From Bacteroidaceae bacterium (GTDB taxonomy: Bacteria; Bacteroidota; Bacteroidia; Bacteroidales; Bacteroidaceae): a stretch of 35,769 nucleotides of DNA. The position numbers and the translations under genes were made by a program. Shown here piece by piece: positions 7,946 through 20,934 of the stretch (position 1 is its first letter; each line of letters starts with the position of its first letter). The notes under the pieces are model-generated. The model saw only the letters and a program-made list of their open reading frames with translations, did not search any database and was not told the origin of the DNA. The stretch is from positions 1-35,769 of the forward strand of contig JAGCDQ010000062.1 in NCBI GenBank assembly GCA_017651245.1, in the 5' to 3' direction.

Positions 7946-10900
7946 TTAGGAGACGGGAAGGGTGAAGATGAAACTTGAGCCCTGACCTTCATCGTTGTTC
8001 TCCACATAAATGCGACACCCACGACGTGCAGAATAAGCATCATGCTCTCTGACAATCTGACGGCAAATCATATATTGTGCCCCAGACAGGGTGTCACTCT
8101 TTGCGTCGTATTTCACATTATCTATATAAAAGAGTTGTGGAATGTCCTCTTCATCATAACGGAATGCTGTGTCCGTGAATGCAAATTTAGCAAAACCATC
8201 TGAAACATCAAAATTCAGCAACAAATCTCCCCCTGATTGATGCTCAAAATAGAGAGAGATGATGTTGTCGAGGAGGGTTTGAATGAAAATCTTATCACCA
8301 TGAATCATCAGTCCCTTCTCATCCGCCACCTTGATGGAAGTCTTGCCTTGCATCTTCTTCTGCTGTTTCTTGAAAGAACGTTTTGCCATTTCACCAATAT
8401 CTTGAGCTGAAAGCTGAACGCGCTTGAAGAGCACTTTCTCCACCTGCTTGCCTGCACAAGTGCTCAGGATGGCAAACACTTCCTTGTAGTAAGAAAGCAA
8501 TTCATCAATATCGTTGATGATTTCCTCATTGACAGGAGCATGAGGGTCAGCCAACGCAACATCCACGATTTGCTTGATACGATTCGGATAATACATGGTC
8601 TCATGCTTCAGCGTCGAGAGGCAGTTATCCATAATCTGATTCCTCACATACACTTTCTGCTGTTCGTTGTCTATGCGCATTCGTTCATCCTGCTTCAATT
8701 CCAGCAATTCCGACATTTCATCCACCTTGTGGTAGGAGAAATATGAATGAATGCTCATAAACTGTGCCACGAGATTGATGATGAGTGACTCTTCATCTTG
8801 AAGTTTTCCATCAATGAAATGCACACCCAACACTCCCAGCACCTTATCTTCTGAGCCAGGCACAAACATAGGATAAGCACGGAAACGCCCATTGTTGCTC
8901 ACCACTTCCTTCTGCTGACGGTATGCAGACTGCATCATGCTTTCATAAACATTGCGTTCAGCCACAACACCCGTGAAATGAGACCAGAACTGGTCAGAAG
9001 AATCTTTTGGCGGAACCATCATACCCACCGTATCTGCAGTCTTGATGTCGGATAGGTTCTGATGCAGCACATCTGGCAAAGTCTGTTCTGTGGCTGTGAA
9101 GACATTGTTGTTCAACTGGATGAACTGTCTCAGATTGAAGATGAACAACTGCGTATTACGATAGTGCAGGAAGAAATAAGTGGCAAGCACAACAAATAGC
9201 AGCACACCCAGCAGAATGGCAGTGGTCTTCTTGTTGCGGTTCGTCATCTTAATGTTATTGCAATACCCCTCTAATGTCGGGTCTGTACTGGTCAACTTAT
9301 AGAGCCGAGTGAACACCTCGCTGTTATAATGATAGAGGCTGTTTCTGTTCAACGAAAGTGCAGCAATTGCCACCTCGTTTCTGATTCCAATAATCAGTTC
9401 GTAATCTGTATCCATTCCCGACTTCCACCACTCGATTTCTGCCATTTCTGCACCTTCCAAAGTCATCAGACACTTACCCTTTGGCACCTGTTCGAGATAA
9501 TAGCGATTAAAACATTGGATGGCTGAGTCGGCATATATAATGGCTTGTTCATAATCACCATTCACGTTGGCATTGAAGATGCTGTCTGCATACACTTCTG
9601 CTGAAGGAAGATGAACTTCTGCCTTCAGCACCAAACATTGCATGAGCAAGCCCAGACAAACCATCAGTTTCATCACGCCTTTCGGCAGGCGGAAGAAGAA
9701 TCGGCTTCCTTTCCCCACTTCACTCTCCACACCAAACTCACACACATTGAACACAGCATTGGTCTTCTTGTACTTACCGATAATACCTTTGCAGTTCATC
9801 AATCCGAAGCCGAATCCCTTGTTCTGTTTGATGTCAGATGCATTGGCACCATCTGTTCCTATCTTGCTCGAATCATACACCTTCGAGTTGTTCAAGGTAT
9901 CCACGTCTTCTGCCGACATACCATGTCCTATATCTGCCACCGACACTTCCACATAGGTTTCGGTTTCCGTGGCATACAGATTCACCTTACCACCAGCAGG
10001 CGTATATTTTCGGGCATTGTCCAATAAAGTGTTCATCATGAAGAGCGTCAAAGACTTGTCTGCCTTCACCACTGCTTCCGTGTCTTCAACAGCTAAAGAC
10101 ACACCCTTGATGTCGAAGCTCTTCGAACCATGACGCAACATCTCAAACAATGGTTTCAAGGCGAAATTCTCGATGTTCAACGTCACCATACCTTGTCGTA
10201 TCTTCACCCAATGACCTAACACATCGTTGTACTCATTGATTTTGTCAATCAGTTCACTCAAATACTGGAAACGTTCACGGATGTTTTCTGGAGTGGCGTT
10301 CTTATCCGTCTTCAGTTTGTTGATCTCATGCAAGGCACGGTCGAGGAATGGTGTGATACCATTCACGATAGACATGGAAGTCAACTTCTCAATATACTGA
10401 CGCTTGTTTTCTTCCAGACGTTTCTCAAACACATAGGTCTCACTCTCCAGTCTTTGTTCCTCCTCCGAGAAATGGATGTATTGCAATCCTTTTTGGCGCA
10501 TCCATTCGTAGAAAACCAGCAACACATGGAACAGTTCTTTATCCAATCCCTTCATTGTCTGGTAATCCACCTTCGTCCAATCCTTTCCTTTCACCTGTGG
10601 GAAAAGACGTTCCACATCAGCATCGGATATTTTGTGGAGCGCTTCCGTCAGGTCCTCCTCGTCCTCAATATCATCCGACAAAGCAGAAGACAAGTGTTTG
10701 CACACTTCTATCACCTTACTCAGCATCCTCACCTTCTTCCGATATTCCTCACGACTCCGTTTGTTATAAAGATACAATAGCCATACCAGCACCACAATCG
10801 CAATACCAAATACCCACAGCAAGAGGTTAAGCGTATGCTCCTCTTGCTTTAGATTATCTTCCTCTTGCAACACACGCAAGTCCTGTCGTGTTGCATCCAA

Positions 10901-12151
10901 AATATCGAAATAGACATTGTGGTTATAGTCGGATTCTGCTTTCAAGCCCCTTGCACCATACACAACACTCAACTGTTCTCGCACCATCGCCATCCATTCA
11001 GGTACAGCCACCACCTGCGGATTCACAATCCAACGCATCTCTGTCGAAATGGTGTCGTTCGTGTTGGTATAAGCATACAACACATCATAATCAGCTTCTT
11101 GAGCCCGCTTTGCAGTTCTCGCCATCTTTTGATGATGCTGATTGATGAGTTCCAGCGCATCCTCCATCTGCACAAACGCCAAGCTATCCTCACCAGCCTT
11201 CAAATAATAATCGGAAAGTGTGACCAAAACGGTTGTCTGAACAAAATCATTCCCATATAACTTTGCCAGTCGCAAAGCTCTGTTTGCCAGTTTCAGTTCC
11301 AGAGGCGCAAAACCAAACTCCCCAATCAGTTCCTCAATGAAGATCCAACGTGAAGGTTTCAGTTCTCCGCCCGACATAATGGACTTTGCTAAACCATTCA
11401 GCGCCAATATCTCATAATACACATTCCCATTCTGACGACTCATCGACAGCAGACGAATCAAGTTACGCTGCATTTCATCCCCAGCATCCACCATCTTCTT
11501 GTCCGCCACATTGTAGATAGAGGTCAAAAACAGATAGATTGATTGTCTGACAGAATCCGTCGCAAACAAATCCTGATGCTGCTCCAACCATTCAGATTCC
11601 TCCAGCACTCCATCATCCTGACGCATCTTGATGAAGTAATTCATGGACACCATGTGGTAATCAGTCTGTACGGCACTCCACAATGCTTGCTGGTGTTCTG
11701 TCATATCCTCTTTTTCTTCCTCCACATTCGCCAGACGCTCTTGTGCATCACTCCGATAGTCGTAAAACTCCTTACTCATCGAAAGCATCAGACAAACAGA
11801 CATCATGTCCACATCTGCCACTCCACACAGCAAGTCGTTGTTCGACGTTTCCAGCACCTGCCTGTAGCACACCTGGGCAGAATCATACTCCATCTGCATG
11901 CCATAGATATCTCCCCTATTTAGCATTGCCTCATGAAGTCCGTCACGATACGGAGAATCAGCATACTTTCCCAATACTTCATCCACATAACGAGTAGCTT
12001 CCTCAAGCGAGCGATACTTCGCTTGAGAAGCCAGCACATTGAGCAAGTCAATCTCACGCTGCTGTGCATCCATTCCTTCTCCGCACGACACCAAGCAAAA
12101 GAGCACCGCCTGTGTCATGATGAAGAATAATATGCGGAATTGAGTCCCCAT
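7946..12151 (-). CDS. Tandem two-module sensor histidine kinase (DUF5112/DUF5113-like)
   Basis: Predicted membrane sensor of about 1401 residues; positions below count from the upstream Met at 12220, and the preferred Met is residue 24 (12151). Order: signal with lipobox-like LVSC (Cys46); periplasmic TPR-like helical region (50-460); membrane helix (465-484); HisKA-like helices and ATPase module 1 (500-848); second hydrophobic segment (850-867); short periplasmic TPR-like region; membrane helix (1001-1019); GAF-like region; and module 2 (1190-1424). Module 1 has N-box Asn735, DIGHG (763-767) and GFGFGL (802-807), but no His at its GITPF box. Module 2 has the His1206-Glu box KHETMYYP, but degenerate G boxes. 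The domain names are from memory of Bacteroidales proteins. The longer start at 12220 is rejected because a promoter -7 box lies inside it. Confidence 0.85.
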   Translation of the reverse strand: MGTQFRILFFIMTQAVLFCLVSCGEGMDAQQREIDLLNVLASQAKYRSLEEATRYVDEVLGKYADSPYRDGLHEAMLNRGDIYGMQMEYDSAQVCYRQVLETSNNDLLCGVADVDMMSVCLMLSMSKEFYDYRSDAQERLANVEEEKEDMTEHQQALWSAVQTDYHMVSMNYFIKMRQDDGVLEESEWLEQHQDLFATDSVRQSIYLFLTSIYNVADKKMVDAGDEMQRNLIRLLSMSRQNGNVYYEILALNGLAKSIMSGGELKPSRWIFIEELIGEFGFAPLELKLANRALRLAKLYGNDFVQTTVLVTLSDYYLKAGEDSLAFVQMEDALELINQHHQKMARTAKRAQEADYDVLYAYTNTNDTISTEMRWIVNPQVVAVPEWMAMVREQLSVVYGARGLKAESDYNHNVYFDILDATRQDLRVLQEEDNLKQEEHTLNLLLWVFGIAIVVLVWLLYLYNKRSREEYRKKVRMLSKVIEVCKHLSSALSDDIEDEEDLTEALHKISDADVERLFPQVKGKDWTKVDYQTMKGLDKELFHVLLVFYEWMRQKGLQYIHFSEEEQRLESETYVFEKRLEENKRQYIEKLTSMSIVNGITPFLDRALHEINKLKTDKNATPENIRERFQYLSELIDKINEYNDVLGHWVKIRQGMVTLNIENFALKPLFEMLRHGSKSFDIKGVSLAVEDTEAVVKADKSLTLFMMNTLLDNARKYTPAGGKVNLYATETETYVEVSVADIGHGMSAEDVDTLNNSKVYDSSKIGTDGANASDIKQNKGFGFGLMNCKGIIGKYKKTNAVFNVCEFGVESEVGKGSRFFFRLPKGVMKLMVCLGLLMQCLVLKAEVHLPSAEVYADSIFNANVNGDYEQAIIYADSAIQCFNRYYLEQVPKGKCLMTLEGAEMAEIEWWKSGMDTDYELIIGIRNEVAIAALSLNRNSLYHYNSEVFTRLYKLTSTDPTLEGYCNNIKMTNRNKKTTAILLGVLLFVVLATYFFLHYRNTQLFIFNLRQFIQLNNNVFTATEQTLPDVLHQNLSDIKTADTVGMMVPPKDSSDQFWSHFTGVVAERNVYESMMQSAYRQQKEVVSNNGRFRAYPMFVPGSEDKVLGVLGVHFIDGKLQDEESLIINLVAQFMSIHSYFSYHKVDEMSELLELKQDERMRIDNEQQKVYVRNQIMDNCLSTLKHETMYYPNRIKQIVDVALADPHAPVNEEIINDIDELLSYYKEVFAILSTCAGKQVEKVLFKRVQLSAQDIGEMAKRSFKKQQKKMQGKTSIKVADEKGLMIHGDKIFIQTLLDNIISLYFEHQSGGDLLLNFDVSDGFAKFAFTDTAFRYDEEDIPQLFYIDNVKYDAKSDTLSGAQYMICRQIVREHDAYSARRGCRIYVENNDEGQGSSFIFTLPVS

Positions 12152-12167
12152 GAGTCTTATAATATGT

Positions 12168-12176
12168 GCAAAGGTA
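12168..12176 (-). promoter_or_regulatory. Promoter -7 box of the sensor kinase operon
   Basis: The minus strand reads TACCTTTGC, a match to TAnnTTTGC, 17 bases before the preferred ATG at 12151. No good TTTG element is visible at the expected distance, so the upstream half is weak. Confidence 0.6.
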
Positions 12177-12219
12177 AAACAAATATTTCGTTTTCTTCTT
12201 TTTTTCAGCATTTTATTCA

Positions 12220-12227
12220 TAACTTTG
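12220..12227 (+). promoter_or_regulatory. Promoter -7 box of folC
   Basis: TAACTTTG lies 27 bases before the folC ATG and is divergent from the kinase promoter. No clear TTTG partner is seen 20 bases upstream, so confidence is moderate. Confidence 0.5.
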
Positions 12228-17291: not shown

Positions 17292-18245
17292 TCATATATT
17301 CACTTCACTTAATGTGACCAACTTGTTCACAATCGCATAAATGGTGAGACCCGCCGCTGAGTGAATCTGCAACTTCCTTGCAATATTGCGACGATGAGTG
17401 GTGACAGTGTTTACTGACAGACAAAGTACATCAGCTATTTCTTTGTTTGACAAGCCCTTTGCCACACATACAACAATCTCCTTTTCGCGGTCAGAGAGTT
17501 GTTCATCGTTCGATATGAGCGACGCATCTGGCTCGTCATCCTTTCTAAACTGGCGGGTCTTTGCCTGATGTTCCAAACGACGTACAGCTGGCACAAAGAT
17601 ATTGTCCTCCACCAGGCAATGAATACTCAAATCCTCCTCAGCCTGATAGATGGAGATGATGACAGCATTCAGTTTCTCGTTGATTTCTGTCTGTGGGTAA
17701 TACTGCATGAAGAGTTTTTTCAGCTCTTTCAGTTTGCTCTCTATATCTTCGTGATGACGCGACAACAACTGACTGTTCTCGATGGAGACCAATTCCCCTT
17801 CCGTCAACTTCTGGACATAAGTATAGACCGTTGATTCCTCATACTCCATGTGCTTGCGTACCTCCTCCACATACTCATCAAAGAACTTCAACACCAGAAA
17901 AGCAATTTCGTTCTGCACCGAGCAGTCGATGGCGTTTAAGAGGTGGAAACGGATGTTGGGGAAGAGGTAATTCAGGAAATAGGCGTGTGTCCTCTTCAGG
18001 TATTCAAGTACAGATACCACGCTGACATGCTCCACCCGTTGGGGGCGATTCTCTGCTCCATTCTTCACATAGTTGATGATGGTGAGAAAGGTGTCCGCGT
18101 CGACGCCACAATGGTTACATACATCAGTGATGGTCTTTTCACCAAATCCCAATGAAATGCCAAAACGGCTCATGATTTGAAGCAATCGGTAGTCGTTGGC
18201 AATCACATAACTCAATTTGTCTGTCAATTTATACTGTTCTGCCAT
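17292..18245 (-). CDS. Hemerythrin/RIC-like domain fused to a LuxR DNA-binding domain
   Basis: A 317-residue predicted di-iron sensor-regulator. Residues about 5-65 resemble the N-terminal part of RIC iron-sulfur repair proteins (YtfE/ScdA), but the Cys-Cys-Gly-Gly motif is replaced by LGFG. Residues about 80-225 form a hemerythrin-like four-helix bundle with candidate ligands His87, His101, His132, Glu136, His164 or His165, His209 and Glu213. Their spacing closely follows that of YtfE. Residues about 250-310 are a LuxR helix-turn-helix (LSDREKEIVVCVAKGLSNKE, then TVTTHRRNIARKLQ). There is no receiver domain. The start is MAEQYK at 18245; the longer frame from 18287 contains the promoter box. 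It faces feoAB across a 197-base gap, so control of ferrous-iron uptake, or of responses to oxygen or NO, is a reasonable inference. Confidence 0.85.
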   Translation of the reverse strand: MAEQYKLTDKLSYVIANDYRLLQIMSRFGISLGFGEKTITDVCNHCGVDADTFLTIINYVKNGAENRPQRVEHVSVVSVLEYLKRTHAYFLNYLFPNIRFHLLNAIDCSVQNEIAFLVLKFFDEYVEEVRKHMEYEESTVYTYVQKLTEGELVSIENSQLLSRHHEDIESKLKELKKLFMQYYPQTEINEKLNAVIISIYQAEEDLSIHCLVEDNIFVPAVRRLEHQAKTRQFRKDDEPDASLISNDEQLSDREKEIVVCVAKGLSNKEIADVLCLSVNTVTTHRRNIARKLQIHSAAGLTIYAIVNKLVTLSEVNI

Positions 18246-18264
18246 TATTTCTTCAAATGTCGTA

Positions 18265-18272
18265 CAAAGGTA
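18265..18272 (-). promoter_or_regulatory. Promoter -7 box of the hemerythrin-LuxR gene
   Basis: The minus strand reads TACCTTTG, about 20 bases before the ATG at 18245. The upstream element is poor (TTCT at the expected spacing). Its position rules out the longer ORF start. Confidence 0.6.
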
Positions 18273-18306
18273 AGGAAAAAAAATCAATGGGAAGAACTCT
18301 ATTCTT

Positions 18307-18327
18307 CACTTTTCACAAGAAAAAGTG
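18307..18327. promoter_or_regulatory. Inverted repeat between divergent feo and regulator promoters
   Basis: CACTTTTC (18307-18314) faces GAAAAAGTG (18319-18327), an 8-bp inverted repeat with one extra A and a four-base spacer. It lies between the two divergent promoters, upstream of the feo -33 element. It could be an operator for the divergent regulator; this is inference from position and symmetry only. Confidence 0.4.
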
Positions 18328-18347
18328 TGAATTACTAACAATTGAGT

Positions 18348-18380
18348 ATTGTTTGGTGTCAGAAAAGAGCGTAACTTTGC
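18348..18380 (+). promoter_or_regulatory. Bacteroidota promoter for feoAB
   Basis: ATTG (18348-18351) and TAACTTTGC (18372-18380) are separated by 20 bases. The -7 half is a full consensus match. The predicted leader before the ATG at 18443 is about 55 bases. Confidence 0.7.
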
Positions 18381-18442
18381 ACCCGATTTAGCATCAAGTC
18401 ATTGGATTATCTATTGTTGAGTTACCTCAATCAAGAAGCAGA

Positions 18443-20758
18443 ATGAAACTTTCAGCATTAAAGACGGGTGAAAAGGGTGTAATTGTCAGGGTGAAAGGAC
18501 ACGGTGGTTTTCGCAAACGCATCGTGGAAATGGGATTCATCAAAGGAAAGAGCGTGGAGGTGTTGCTTAACGCCCCCCTTCATGACCCTGTCAAATACAA
18601 AGTGATGGACTACGAAGTAAGCCTACGCCGTGCTGAAGCGGAACTGGTCGAGGTAGTCAGCGAAGAAGAGGCAAAGGAATGGGAGTCGCTCCATCCTGAG
18701 CAGAAAGGCATTCCTGCCGATGAATGCGAAGATGTGATGCATCGTCTGGCAAAGGTCAAAGAGCATGAGTTGAACGTCGTGTTTGTGGGTAATCCAAATT
18801 GCGGAAAGACATCCCTCTTCAACATCGCCAGTAGAGCACATGAGCGTGTGGGCAACTATTCAGGTGTCACCGTGGATGCCAAAGTCGGACATTTCGATTT
18901 TGAAGGTTATCATTTCAATTTAGTCGATTTACCTGGTACCTATTCCCTCTCTGCCTACACCCCCGAGGAACTCTATGTACGAAAACACATCATCGAACAG
19001 CATCCTGACATCATCATCAACGTGATTGATGCCAGCAACTTGGAACGTAATCTCTATCTGACCACTCAGCTGATCGACATGGATGTACCGATGATTATTG
19101 CACTCAACATGTTCGATGAACTACGTGAGAGTGGCAACCAGCTCGATATGCTGCAACTGGGCACCTTGCTGGGTACTCCTATCGTACCCACCGTCGGAAA
19201 GACTGGCGAAGGAGTTCGTGAACTATTTCATCAGATTATTGAGATCACGGAAGGCAGACAGAAGACTGCCAGACACATACACGTCAATCACGGAATGTTG
19301 CTCGAAGAGAAGATTGACCGCATCGAGGCATTCATCCGCATGAATCCAGAACCTCACCACAACTATTCAGCTCGTTTTCTTTCCATCAAGCTTTTGGAAA
19401 ATGACCGACAAGTGGAGGGAATTGTCAGGAAGTTGGAGAATGCCAACGACATTCTAGCTGAAAGAGACTTGTGTCAGAAAGAGATTCAGAATGAGATAGA
19501 GGAAGACAGCGAGTCAGCCATCACAGATGCCAAGTACGGCTTTGTACAGGGTGCCATGAAGGAGACCTTCAAGAAAGTGCAACGTTACAAACGATTGATG
19601 ACCAAACGCATCGATGCCGTCGTCACTCATCAGATTTGGGGTTACCCTATCTTCCTGTTGCTCATGTACCTGATGTTTTTCTGCACATTCAACATCGGGC
19701 AGTATCCGATGGATTGGATTGATGCTGCCGTCAGGTGGCTTGGTGAGATCGTAAGTGAATGGATGTCCGATGGCGCCTTAAAAGATCTGATTGTCGATGG
19801 TATCATCAGCGGTGTGGGCGGCGTCATCGTGTTCTTACCCAACATCATGATTCTCTATGCGTTTATCTCATGGATGGAGGACAGTGGCTATATGGCTCGT
19901 GCTGCTTTCATCATGGACAAAATTATGCACCGAATGGGACTACACGGGAAGTCGTTCATTCCCATGATTATGGGCTTCGGGTGCAACATTCCTGCCATCA
20001 TGGCAACCCGTACCATCGAAGACCGCAAATCGCGCCTCATCACCATGCTCATCATCCCCCTCATGTCGTGTTCGGCTCGTCTGCCTGTCTATATCATCAT
20101 CATTGGTGCTTTCTTCCCCAAGAATGCCGCACTCATCCTCTTCTGCATGTATCTGATTGGCATCGTGTTCAGCGTCTTCATGGCAAAGGTGTTTAGCCGT
20201 TTCGTCATCAAAGGCGAAAGCAGTCCGTTTGTGATGGAGTTGCCTCCCTATCGTATGCCTTCCATGAAGAGCGTGGGACGTCACACTTGGGAGAAAGGCA
20301 AGCAATATTTGAAGAAAATGGGTACGACGATTCTGGTGGCAAGCATCGCCGTTTGGGCACTCAGCTATTTCCCTCATCACGAAGAGATGAGGGAGGAGAT
20401 GCAGATGGAGACGAGCTATATCGGTCAGGTTGGTAAATTCGTTGAGCCAGTCATCCGTTCGTGCGGATTGCAATGGAAAGAAGGTGTGGCACTCATCGCT
20501 GGCGTCGGAGCTAAAGAAATTGTGGCAAGCACGATGGCAGTACTCTATCATGGTGATGTTGCCACTAGTGGCATGACACCACTTGCAGCACTCTGCTTCA
20601 TGCTCTTCGTACTGCTCTATTTCCCCTGCATCCCTACTTGCATCGGCATCAAGCATGAATCGGGCAAATGGAAATGGGCTGCCTTCACAGCACTTTACAC
20701 CACTCTGTTGGCTTGGGGGGTCTCCACATTGGTTTATCAAATTGGCAGTTTGTTCTAA
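18443..20758 (+). CDS. feoB: Fused FeoA-FeoB ferrous iron transporter
   Basis: Inner-membrane importer of Fe(II). Residues 1-75 are a FeoA (SH3-like) domain with GFRKRIVEMGF, joined by a linker to FeoB. The G domain has GNPNCGKTS (116-124), the switch region VGNYSGVTVD, DLPG (162-165) and NMFD (222-225). A helical GDI-like region follows, then the C-terminal membrane part with several helices and two Gate domains, including the IMGFGCNIPAIMATRTIEDR region and the late GVGAKEIVASTMAVL segment. FeoA-FeoB fusion is usual in Bacteroidota. The 771-residue length fits. It is divergent from the hemerythrin-LuxR regulator and is followed after 11 bases by its small Cys-rich partner. Confidence 0.96.
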   Translation: MKLSALKTGEKGVIVRVKGHGGFRKRIVEMGFIKGKSVEVLLNAPLHDPVKYKVMDYEVSLRRAEAELVEVVSEEEAKEWESLHPEQKGIPADECEDVMHRLAKVKEHELNVVFVGNPNCGKTSLFNIASRAHERVGNYSGVTVDAKVGHFDFEGYHFNLVDLPGTYSLSAYTPEELYVRKHIIEQHPDIIINVIDASNLERNLYLTTQLIDMDVPMIIALNMFDELRESGNQLDMLQLGTLLGTPIVPTVGKTGEGVRELFHQIIEITEGRQKTARHIHVNHGMLLEEKIDRIEAFIRMNPEPHHNYSARFLSIKLLENDRQVEGIVRKLENANDILAERDLCQKEIQNEIEEDSESAITDAKYGFVQGAMKETFKKVQRYKRLMTKRIDAVVTHQIWGYPIFLLLMYLMFFCTFNIGQYPMDWIDAAVRWLGEIVSEWMSDGALKDLIVDGIISGVGGVIVFLPNIMILYAFISWMEDSGYMARAAFIMDKIMHRMGLHGKSFIPMIMGFGCNIPAIMATRTIEDRKSRLITMLIIPLMSCSARLPVYIIIIGAFFPKNAALILFCMYLIGIVFSVFMAKVFSRFVIKGESSPFVMELPPYRMPSMKSVGRHTWEKGKQYLKKMGTTILVASIAVWALSYFPHHEEMREEMQMETSYIGQVGKFVEPVIRSCGLQWKEGVALIAGVGAKEIVASTMAVLYHGDVATSGMTPLAALCFMLFVLLYFPCIPTCIGIKHESGKWKWAAFTALYTTLLAWGVSTLVYQIGSLF

Positions 20759-20769
20759 AACAAGTAATC

Positions 20770-20934
20770 ATGATTGGATTTCAAGACATAATCGTATATC
20801 TTATCTTAGTAGGTGTGGCAGCCATTATTGCCCGCTACATCTATCGACAAGTGAAAGGGAAAGATAGCGGCTGTTCGTGCAGCTCCTGTTCCCAATGCTG
20901 TGACGGGTGTCATTGTCATGATACTCAAAATTAG
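20770..20934 (+). CDS. FeoB-associated Cys-rich membrane protein
   Basis: A 54-residue protein starting 11 bases after feoB. It has one membrane helix (about 7-25), a short basic stretch, then a Cys/His-rich tail with seven Cys and two His between residues 35 and 50 (GCSCSSCSQCCDGCHCH). This arrangement and the feoB neighbourhood match the FeoB-associated Cys-rich family, an apparent stand-in for FeoC. The tail probably binds metal, perhaps iron passing through FeoB; that role is inference. Confidence 0.85.
   Translation: MIGFQDIIVYLILVGVAAIIARYIYRQVKGKDSGCSCSSCSQCCDGCHCHDTQN

Follow-up and report, generated by a model that had tools for sequence, protein, structure and literature searches.

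The analysis revealed that the gene at 17292..18245 on the minus strand of the window (the whole stretch of 35,769 nt analysed here), which comes from a rumen bacterium, encodes a fused hemerythrin and LuxR regulator that is probably a one-component activator of an iron-starvation regulon and would be inactive once its di-iron site holds iron. We refer to the gene as hrR, a name coined in this analysis. The sequences support this reading through the domains, the metal ligands, the DNA site, the predicted regulon and the co-occurrence of site and regulator. The family is partly described and the fused build is already published for another species; as far as the literature searched shows, the new parts are the predicted conserved palindromic operator, the predicted regulon, the feo link over long distances, and the lost phosphorylation site together with repeated fusion.

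Domain Architecture of the Fused Regulator

The ORF scan placed the start codon (ATG) of the regulator at 18245 and its stop at 17292, giving a protein of 317 aa. Residues 80-220 (17586..18008, minus strand) match the Hemerythrin family PF01814 with 39.3 bits against a cut-off of 25.3, and residues 249-304 (17334..17501, minus strand) match the LuxR/GerE DNA-binding domain PF00196 with 63.2 bits, above the gathering score of 23.5, with a linker of 28 residues between the two Pfam domains. The N-terminal segment, residues 7-70 (18036..18227, minus strand), is RIC/ScdA_N-like by its profile match to the ScdA crystal sequences. A family profile of 49 sequences (that of the window and 48 relatives) matched the crystal chains of ScdA and YtfE with a best E-value of 5e-8, and the ScdA crystal sequences 9j47 and 9r7j were matched over profile positions 7-221, so most of the protein before the helix-turn-helix (HTH) is RIC-like. 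The curated RIC model TIGR03652 covered residues 14-220 with 49.3 bits, below its cut-off of 204.7. The fusion of a RIC-like hemerythrin with a LuxR domain, proposed in an earlier sequence-only reading of this DNA, was borne out by PF01814, PF00196 and the sub-cut-off TIGR03652 match. This genome, 2.83 Mb in size and 86% complete, has no Hemerythrin-family match besides the regulator. Elsewhere in the window, a 1424-aa ORF at 7946-12220 on the minus strand contains DUF5112, two DUF5113 and two HATPase_c stretches, apparently two histidine-kinase-like modules in one frame.

Conservation of the Di-Iron Site

The window protein harbors all six YtfE-type ligands within its hemerythrin domain. Across 136 non-identical family proteins (72 fused and 64 split), His87, His132, Glu136, His209 and Glu213 were found in 136/136 and His165 in 131/136, the exceptions being five of the 72 fused proteins (L019, L026, L028, L115 and L116). 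The sequence-only reading had listed these six residues, giving one of them as His164/165, and all the residues it named lie where it numbered them; its seventh candidate, His101, was rejected as a conserved ligand because residue 101 is His in just 17/72 fused and 3/64 split proteins. A 2022 review names the YtfE ligands as H84, H204, H129, H160, E133 and E208, with H105 outside that list (PMC9268430). The His near the YtfE 105 region in RIC-like proteins (14/15) aligns with Ser109 of the window protein.

The Cys pair of RIC proteins, whose absence had been read correctly, is replaced by Gly33-Phe34 in the window protein and by Gly-Phe in nearly all relatives; Cys was observed there in 0/135 family proteins with a residue at that position versus 14/15 RIC-like proteins (Cys-Cys), the latter set comprising the 15 weaker hits of the phylum search whose loci were fetched. 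Cys43 is maintained in 135/136 family proteins. The position before His165, corresponding to YtfE Glu159, is Glu in 13/15 RIC-like proteins and His, Asn or Lys in 116/136 family proteins; in YtfE this Glu lies beside a proposed iron channel and contacts the ligand H129 (PMC9268430). The metal site thus looks intact in the alignment, yet it is probably unlike that of an iron-donating repair protein. That the protein repairs Fe-S clusters as a RIC, its DNA-binding part being incidental, would agree with its RIC-like sequence profile and ligands, but it is scarcely credible given the Cys pair missing in 135 of 135, the TIGR03652 score far under its cut-off, and an HTH that is 76% identical to that of a separate regulator.

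Operator and Promoter Elements

Comparison of the intergenic regions between regulator and feoAB revealed a palindrome, TACYNA-N4-TRRGKA, with TTG next to it and then TAnnTTTG after a further 20 nt. In the window, the predicted operator TACTAACAATTGAGTA occupies 18333..18348 on the plus strand and abuts the TTG at 18349-18351, with which the feoAB promoter begins (18349..18379, plus strand: TTG, exactly 20 nt, then TAACTTTG, by pattern match). These promoter elements are of the Bacteroidota -33/-7 type. The match to the full 47-base pattern at 18333-18379 has 0 mismatches, with a chance expectation of 0.02 in the window at ≤3 mismatches. When the spacing to the -7 box was left free at 12-30, exactly 20 nt separated the elements in 54 of the 59 palindrome-box pairs with a perfect TAnnTTTG, out of 164 palindromes examined (≤2 mismatches). 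By the usual Bacteroidota promoter numbering, the operator is centred near -44, the position of a class II activator, and its inverted symmetry and position suit LuxR/NarL proteins. Position and fixed distance to the -7 box together suit an activator of the LuxR/NarL type.

Alternatively, the protein could repress feoAB, with iron serving as corepressor: when bound to the palindrome it would sit directly beside the -33 TTG and could stand in the way of the polymerase. We consider this improbable, because the 20-nt spacing in 54/59 pairs suits polymerase contact, CdhR, a relative, is a reported activator of hmu/hmuYR (PMC10101095), and relatives rise together with such targets on iron depletion (PMC10434189).

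The regulator's own promoter in the window has a probable -7 box, TACCTTTG, read from the sequence at 18265..18272 on the minus strand. No operator copy facing this promoter was found in this genome, which leaves it without an autoregulatory site there. A similar arrangement faces the regulator's own gene at many loci of both the fused and the split form, those of Bacteroides among them, and its last box is often TTnnTTTG. A second inverted repeat, TTCACA-N8-TGTGAA at 18312-18331, was recovered across the scanned upstream regions only as the window's own copies and a variant in L004/L111 and was rejected as not conserved. The operator was not found in the distant operons that join the hemerythrin gene, luxR and feoAB, where L059-L065 remained at control level.

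Distribution of the Site across Genomes

A search of 81 family genomes with the 47-base pattern at ≤2 mismatches returned 360 matches versus 11 for the reversed pattern. A scrambled palindrome with the same promoter half was added because the reversed pattern does not keep the promoter and is too weak alone, and this one control returned 15 matches in the 81 genomes. Within the same genus, 13 genomes contributed 45 sites versus 1 control match. The operator was learned from feo and regulator promoters, so hits at those genes are not independent.

The regulator was matched in 75/81 family genomes (E ≤1e-10). Matches to its hemerythrin part were listed in 72 genomes, 41 in one frame with an HTH and 31 without; the regulator list consists of such matches, and three genomes with an HTH alone or a match not listed (G024, G039 and G059) lie outside the 72 and carry 1, 1 and 2 sites. 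At least one site was present in 69/72 genomes with the hemerythrin part (G019, G038 and G067 have the regulator and no site) and 0 sites in the six regulator-less genomes (Fisher p 3e-7, uncorrected for relatedness). The six span four genera; completeness is 75-84% for four of these genomes, and missing sequence could explain part of the absence. A Fur-family gene was found in 20/20 genomes tested, the six regulator-less ones included, and a strong FeoB match in 76/81 genomes, including five of those six (not G004); the regulator is present in G001, G016, G028 and G031, which have no strong FeoB match.

These counts bear on whether the palindrome belongs to Fur or another iron regulator, of which the gene encoding the hemerythrin and LuxR parts would be merely a target. 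In favor of this, iron-starvation genes of a general kind make up many of the predicted targets, and the site often stands at the regulator gene too (34/75). However, the six regulator-less genomes all have a Fur-family gene, and five of them a strong FeoB, with 0 sites, so the site tracks the hemerythrin and LuxR regulator and not mere Fur-family presence; the symmetry and position of the site, which suit LuxR/NarL proteins, also argue against another owner. A site moreover stands before an hmuYR-like operon, and hmuYR is a published target of CdhR (PMC10101095). We give this explanation a slim chance and regard the fused regulator as the protein that would bind the site.

Predicted Regulon

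Before genes were counted, FeoB_N matches below ~119 bits (other GTPases) and flavodoxin matches below ~69 bits (mostly frames of ~400 aa) were excluded. The site lies 320-620 bp before the FeoB_N match in 19/80 feoB genes, where 0.06 would be expected under a uniform spread, and 11 of the 19 are in genomes without feoB found within 3 kb of the regulator. It also precedes 8/34 flavodoxins and 34/75 regulator genes.

The 45 same-genus sites reduce to 42 distinct sequences once three exact repeats are set aside, and the gene that follows is feoAB in 12, a lipoprotein cluster in 9, a porin-like gene with a GGYGE motif in 6, DUF4491 in 4, flavodoxin in 3 and other genes in 7, with no gene call in 1. 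Pfam scans of these downstream genes covered two lipoproteins (Calycin_like), one DUF4491 protein and one flavodoxin; the one GGYGE porin-like protein scanned had no Pfam match. The operator precedes the gene for the small DUF4491 protein in several same-genus genomes (L216, L226, L230 and L238); this protein is a candidate iron-starvation protein.

This genome contains 8 site matches at ≤3 mismatches versus 1 for the control. The site with 0 mismatches precedes feoAB; the one with 1 mismatch precedes a row of calycin-like lipoprotein, HmuY (PF14064, 124.6 bits) and TonB receptor; the one with 2 mismatches precedes a porin-like gene followed by an imelysin (Peptidase_M75, 127.8 bits). For the remaining five, each with 3 mismatches, there is no clear connection with iron; one lies beside a TonB-receptor gene. 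Neither the hmuYR-like nor the porin-imelysin operons were used to learn the operator, and the pairing of porin and peptidase M75 matches an iron-starvation locus of B. thetaiotaomicron (PMC10434189). On these predictions, the regulon consists largely of iron acquisition and iron sparing.

Linkage to feoAB

The gene facing the regulator, at 18443..20758 on the plus strand, encodes FeoA and FeoB fused in 771 aa (PF04023, PF02421, PF07664 and PF17910) and is followed at 20773..20934 (plus strand) by a FeoB-associated Cys-rich membrane protein of 53 aa (PF12669, 30.4 bits, cut-off 27). The regulator and feoAB are divergent across 197 intergenic bases, so that the arrangement described by the sequence-only reading, divergence from a fused feoAB with a Cys-rich partner, is confirmed.

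Among the 72 family genomes, feoB lies within 3 kb of the regulator in 13 and within 15 kb in 8 more, and 13/72 is a lower bound because some regulators are at contig ends. Ten of the 13 are divergent, and three of one genus have feoAB, hemerythrin and LuxR in a row on the same strand. The relatives kept were the best 80 of 561. Among the named loci, 80 in number, feoB stands within 3 kb in 13, every one of them fused; none of the named split loci has it within the available flank. Several genera (L082, L083, L084 and L088) have feoB ~9.5-14 kb from the regulator. At the phylum level, nine genomes with strong matches (≥169 bits) were obtained, and feoB is downstream on the same strand in 7/9; for the other two, G094 and G236, it was absent from the available stretch. 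One of the seven distant feo-linked genomes has the fused form, its FeoB being 27% identical to that of the window, and for another, G411, the ORF scan found no LuxR gene. In one distant family (L245-L248, the same genes as L063-L066), the hemerythrin gene is upstream of feoAB on the same strand and the Gly-Phe-Gly motif is replaced by Ile-Val-His.

Adjacency to feo as the defining context of the whole family was rejected. A tally of adjacent feoB, suggested by the sequence-only reading, thus favors the link in the distant genomes (7/9) and in part of the family (13/72), whereas most family relatives have no adjacent feoB. Control of ferrous-iron uptake by the fused regulator, which the same reading had proposed, is well supported at the sequence level by the gene context and by the site that is conserved in the feoAB promoter. 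The predicted regulon goes beyond that proposal and takes in hmuYR-like, porin-imelysin and flavodoxin genes.

Split and Fused Forms

In 19 of the 20 places fetched, the hemerythrin and LuxR parts form a neighboring gene pair with ends overlapping or nearly touching, the hemerythrin being ~234 aa and the LuxR protein ~200 aa in length; the twentieth, G024, has an HTH fragment only. The window protein shares 45% identity over residues 3-229 with the hemerythrin of the Bacteroides fragilis pair (L168) and 76% over residues 248-315 with its LuxR partner. No Pfam receiver match was obtained in the N-terminal part of the six LuxR partners scanned. A profile of 32 LuxR partners aligns over nearly its full length with VraR, a response regulator; the column that pairs with the phospho-accepting Asp of VraR holds Asn, and Asp was observed there in 1/59 split LuxR partners. 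The fused window protein contains no receiver domain by Pfam, and the 28 residues between its two Pfam domains leave no room for one.

In a tree of 121 sequences, the fused and split states need 8 changes by parsimony, and strongly supported branches force at least 3; the tree was built by a quick method, has several long branches, and omitted 11/15 RIC-like rows, the truncated L086 and near-duplicates. That these two proteins fused repeatedly is good evidence of a joint function. A fused regulator in an assembly titled Clostridium sp. (MAG; L159, 6001-6978) groups with the Paraprevotella ones, and this assembly is probably mislabelled or contaminated. G425, a genome from the same order, has the hemerythrin part in three copies, one at L056 and the others at two more places.

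Proposed Mechanism

When cytosolic ferrous iron is plentiful, the di-iron site would be filled and the regulator would not activate. When iron is short, the apo regulator would bind TACYNA-N4-TRRGKA as a dimer and, beside the -33 TTG, recruit RNA polymerase to the feoAB, hmuYR-like and porin-imelysin operons; in relatives its targets would also include flavodoxin and the regulator gene itself. Bacteroides and others would divide this device between two proteins, with the degenerate receiver of the LuxR protein probably docking the separate hemerythrin, and fusion would have made the receiver dispensable. We infer in this model the binding of DNA by the window protein, the activation, iron as the ligand, the direction of the switch and the docking. 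The apo form should be the active one because relatives and such targets rise on iron depletion, BT0519-0520 by 16-20-fold and PG1236-1237 by ~7-fold (PMC10434189). By analogy, a similar logic applies to plant hemerythrin iron sensors, which are reported to bind iron reversibly (PMC12022348). The sequence-only reading had suggested a one-component sensor with iron, oxygen or NO as the signal; iron is favored indirectly, through the kept di-iron ligands and the induction of relatives on iron depletion (PMC10434189). No experiment showing iron binding by any family member was found in the literature searched, and PMC10434189 says the same of CdhR itself.

The hemerythrin site might instead sense NO, O2 or redox, with iron uptake adjusted within a nitrosative or oxidative stress response. 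ScdA and YtfE are the closest solved relatives, nitrosative stress induces ytfE, which gives protection against NO and H2O2 (PMC9268430), the di-iron centres of the plant hemerythrin sensors are oxidised by O2 and H2O2 (PMC12022348), and cdhR is lowered under microaerophilic conditions (PMC10101095). However, the predicted regulon is largely one of iron acquisition and iron sparing, the published induction of relatives is by iron depletion (PMC10434189), and both the Cys pair and the YtfE Glu159 position are changed; sensing of this kind therefore appears unlikely, though with a real chance of being right.

Beyond the iron-responsive activator proposed for the window, a broader proposal is put forward tentatively, as one whose chance falls just short of even: Bacteroidota of this kind may sense cytosolic iron chiefly via a hemerythrin di-iron protein and not Fur, the apo form switching on one regulon (feoAB, hmuYR, porin-imelysin and flavodoxin) through TACYNA-N4-TRRGKA, with the split form acting via a receiver turned docking domain that repeated fusions discarded. 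If true, bacteria would have their own equivalent of the eukaryotic hemerythrin iron sensors. The activator reading of the window protein itself points to what may be an iron-sensing route in a large group of gut bacteria. The sensor site (six residues), the operator and the short target list are defined, which makes the question directly testable in a laboratory strain. The regulator as two proteins versus one also offers a natural experiment, in which a receiver loses phosphorylation and perhaps becomes an adaptor.

Comparison with Known Systems

The sequence-only reading knew of no well-described regulator of this build, and this did not hold: a 2023 paper describes two genes (hemerythrin and CdhR) in Porphyromonas and Bacteroides and a fused form in P. 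intermedia, and states that PG1236 - CdhR (PG1237) and BT0519-0520 are identical operons (PMC10434189). In the literature searched, mostly without subscription papers and without supplements, no mention of an operator, a pseudo-receiver or a feo link of the hemerythrin and CdhR system was found. Published CdhR work reportedly, by its title, also ties CdhR to signalling with Streptococcus.

Like the window protein, the PG1236 - CdhR and BT0519-0520 systems join a hemerythrin with a DNA-binding regulator; they rise on iron depletion, and CdhR is linked to hmuYR (PMC10434189, PMC10101095). Both halves of the B. fragilis pair (L168) align with the window protein, and this pair served for the sequence comparison. 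The split pairs fetched consist of two genes, and their LuxR protein has a receiver-like domain, whereas the window encodes a single protein that lacks this domain and faces feoAB. PIN17_RS10465 of Prevotella intermedia, compared by description, is stated to be the same operon fused in one protein (PMC10434189, Fig. 3E legend), and the part of that source available states no site, regulon or feo link for it.

YtfE and ScdA (RIC) share with the window protein the sequence profile over most of its length and all six di-iron ligands, but the window protein is without the Cys pair, has an extra HTH and lies in a different gene context. FBXL5 contains a hemerythrin-like di-iron domain for which iron sensing has been proposed or shown, and it controls iron balance, which we treat as an analogy only. 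The same applies, again only by analogy, to the hemerythrin-like di-iron domain of BRUTUS, with iron sensing proposed or shown and control of iron balance (PMC12022348). Both are parts of E3 ubiquitin ligases and, unlike the window protein, are not DNA-binding, and we claim no common membership with them.
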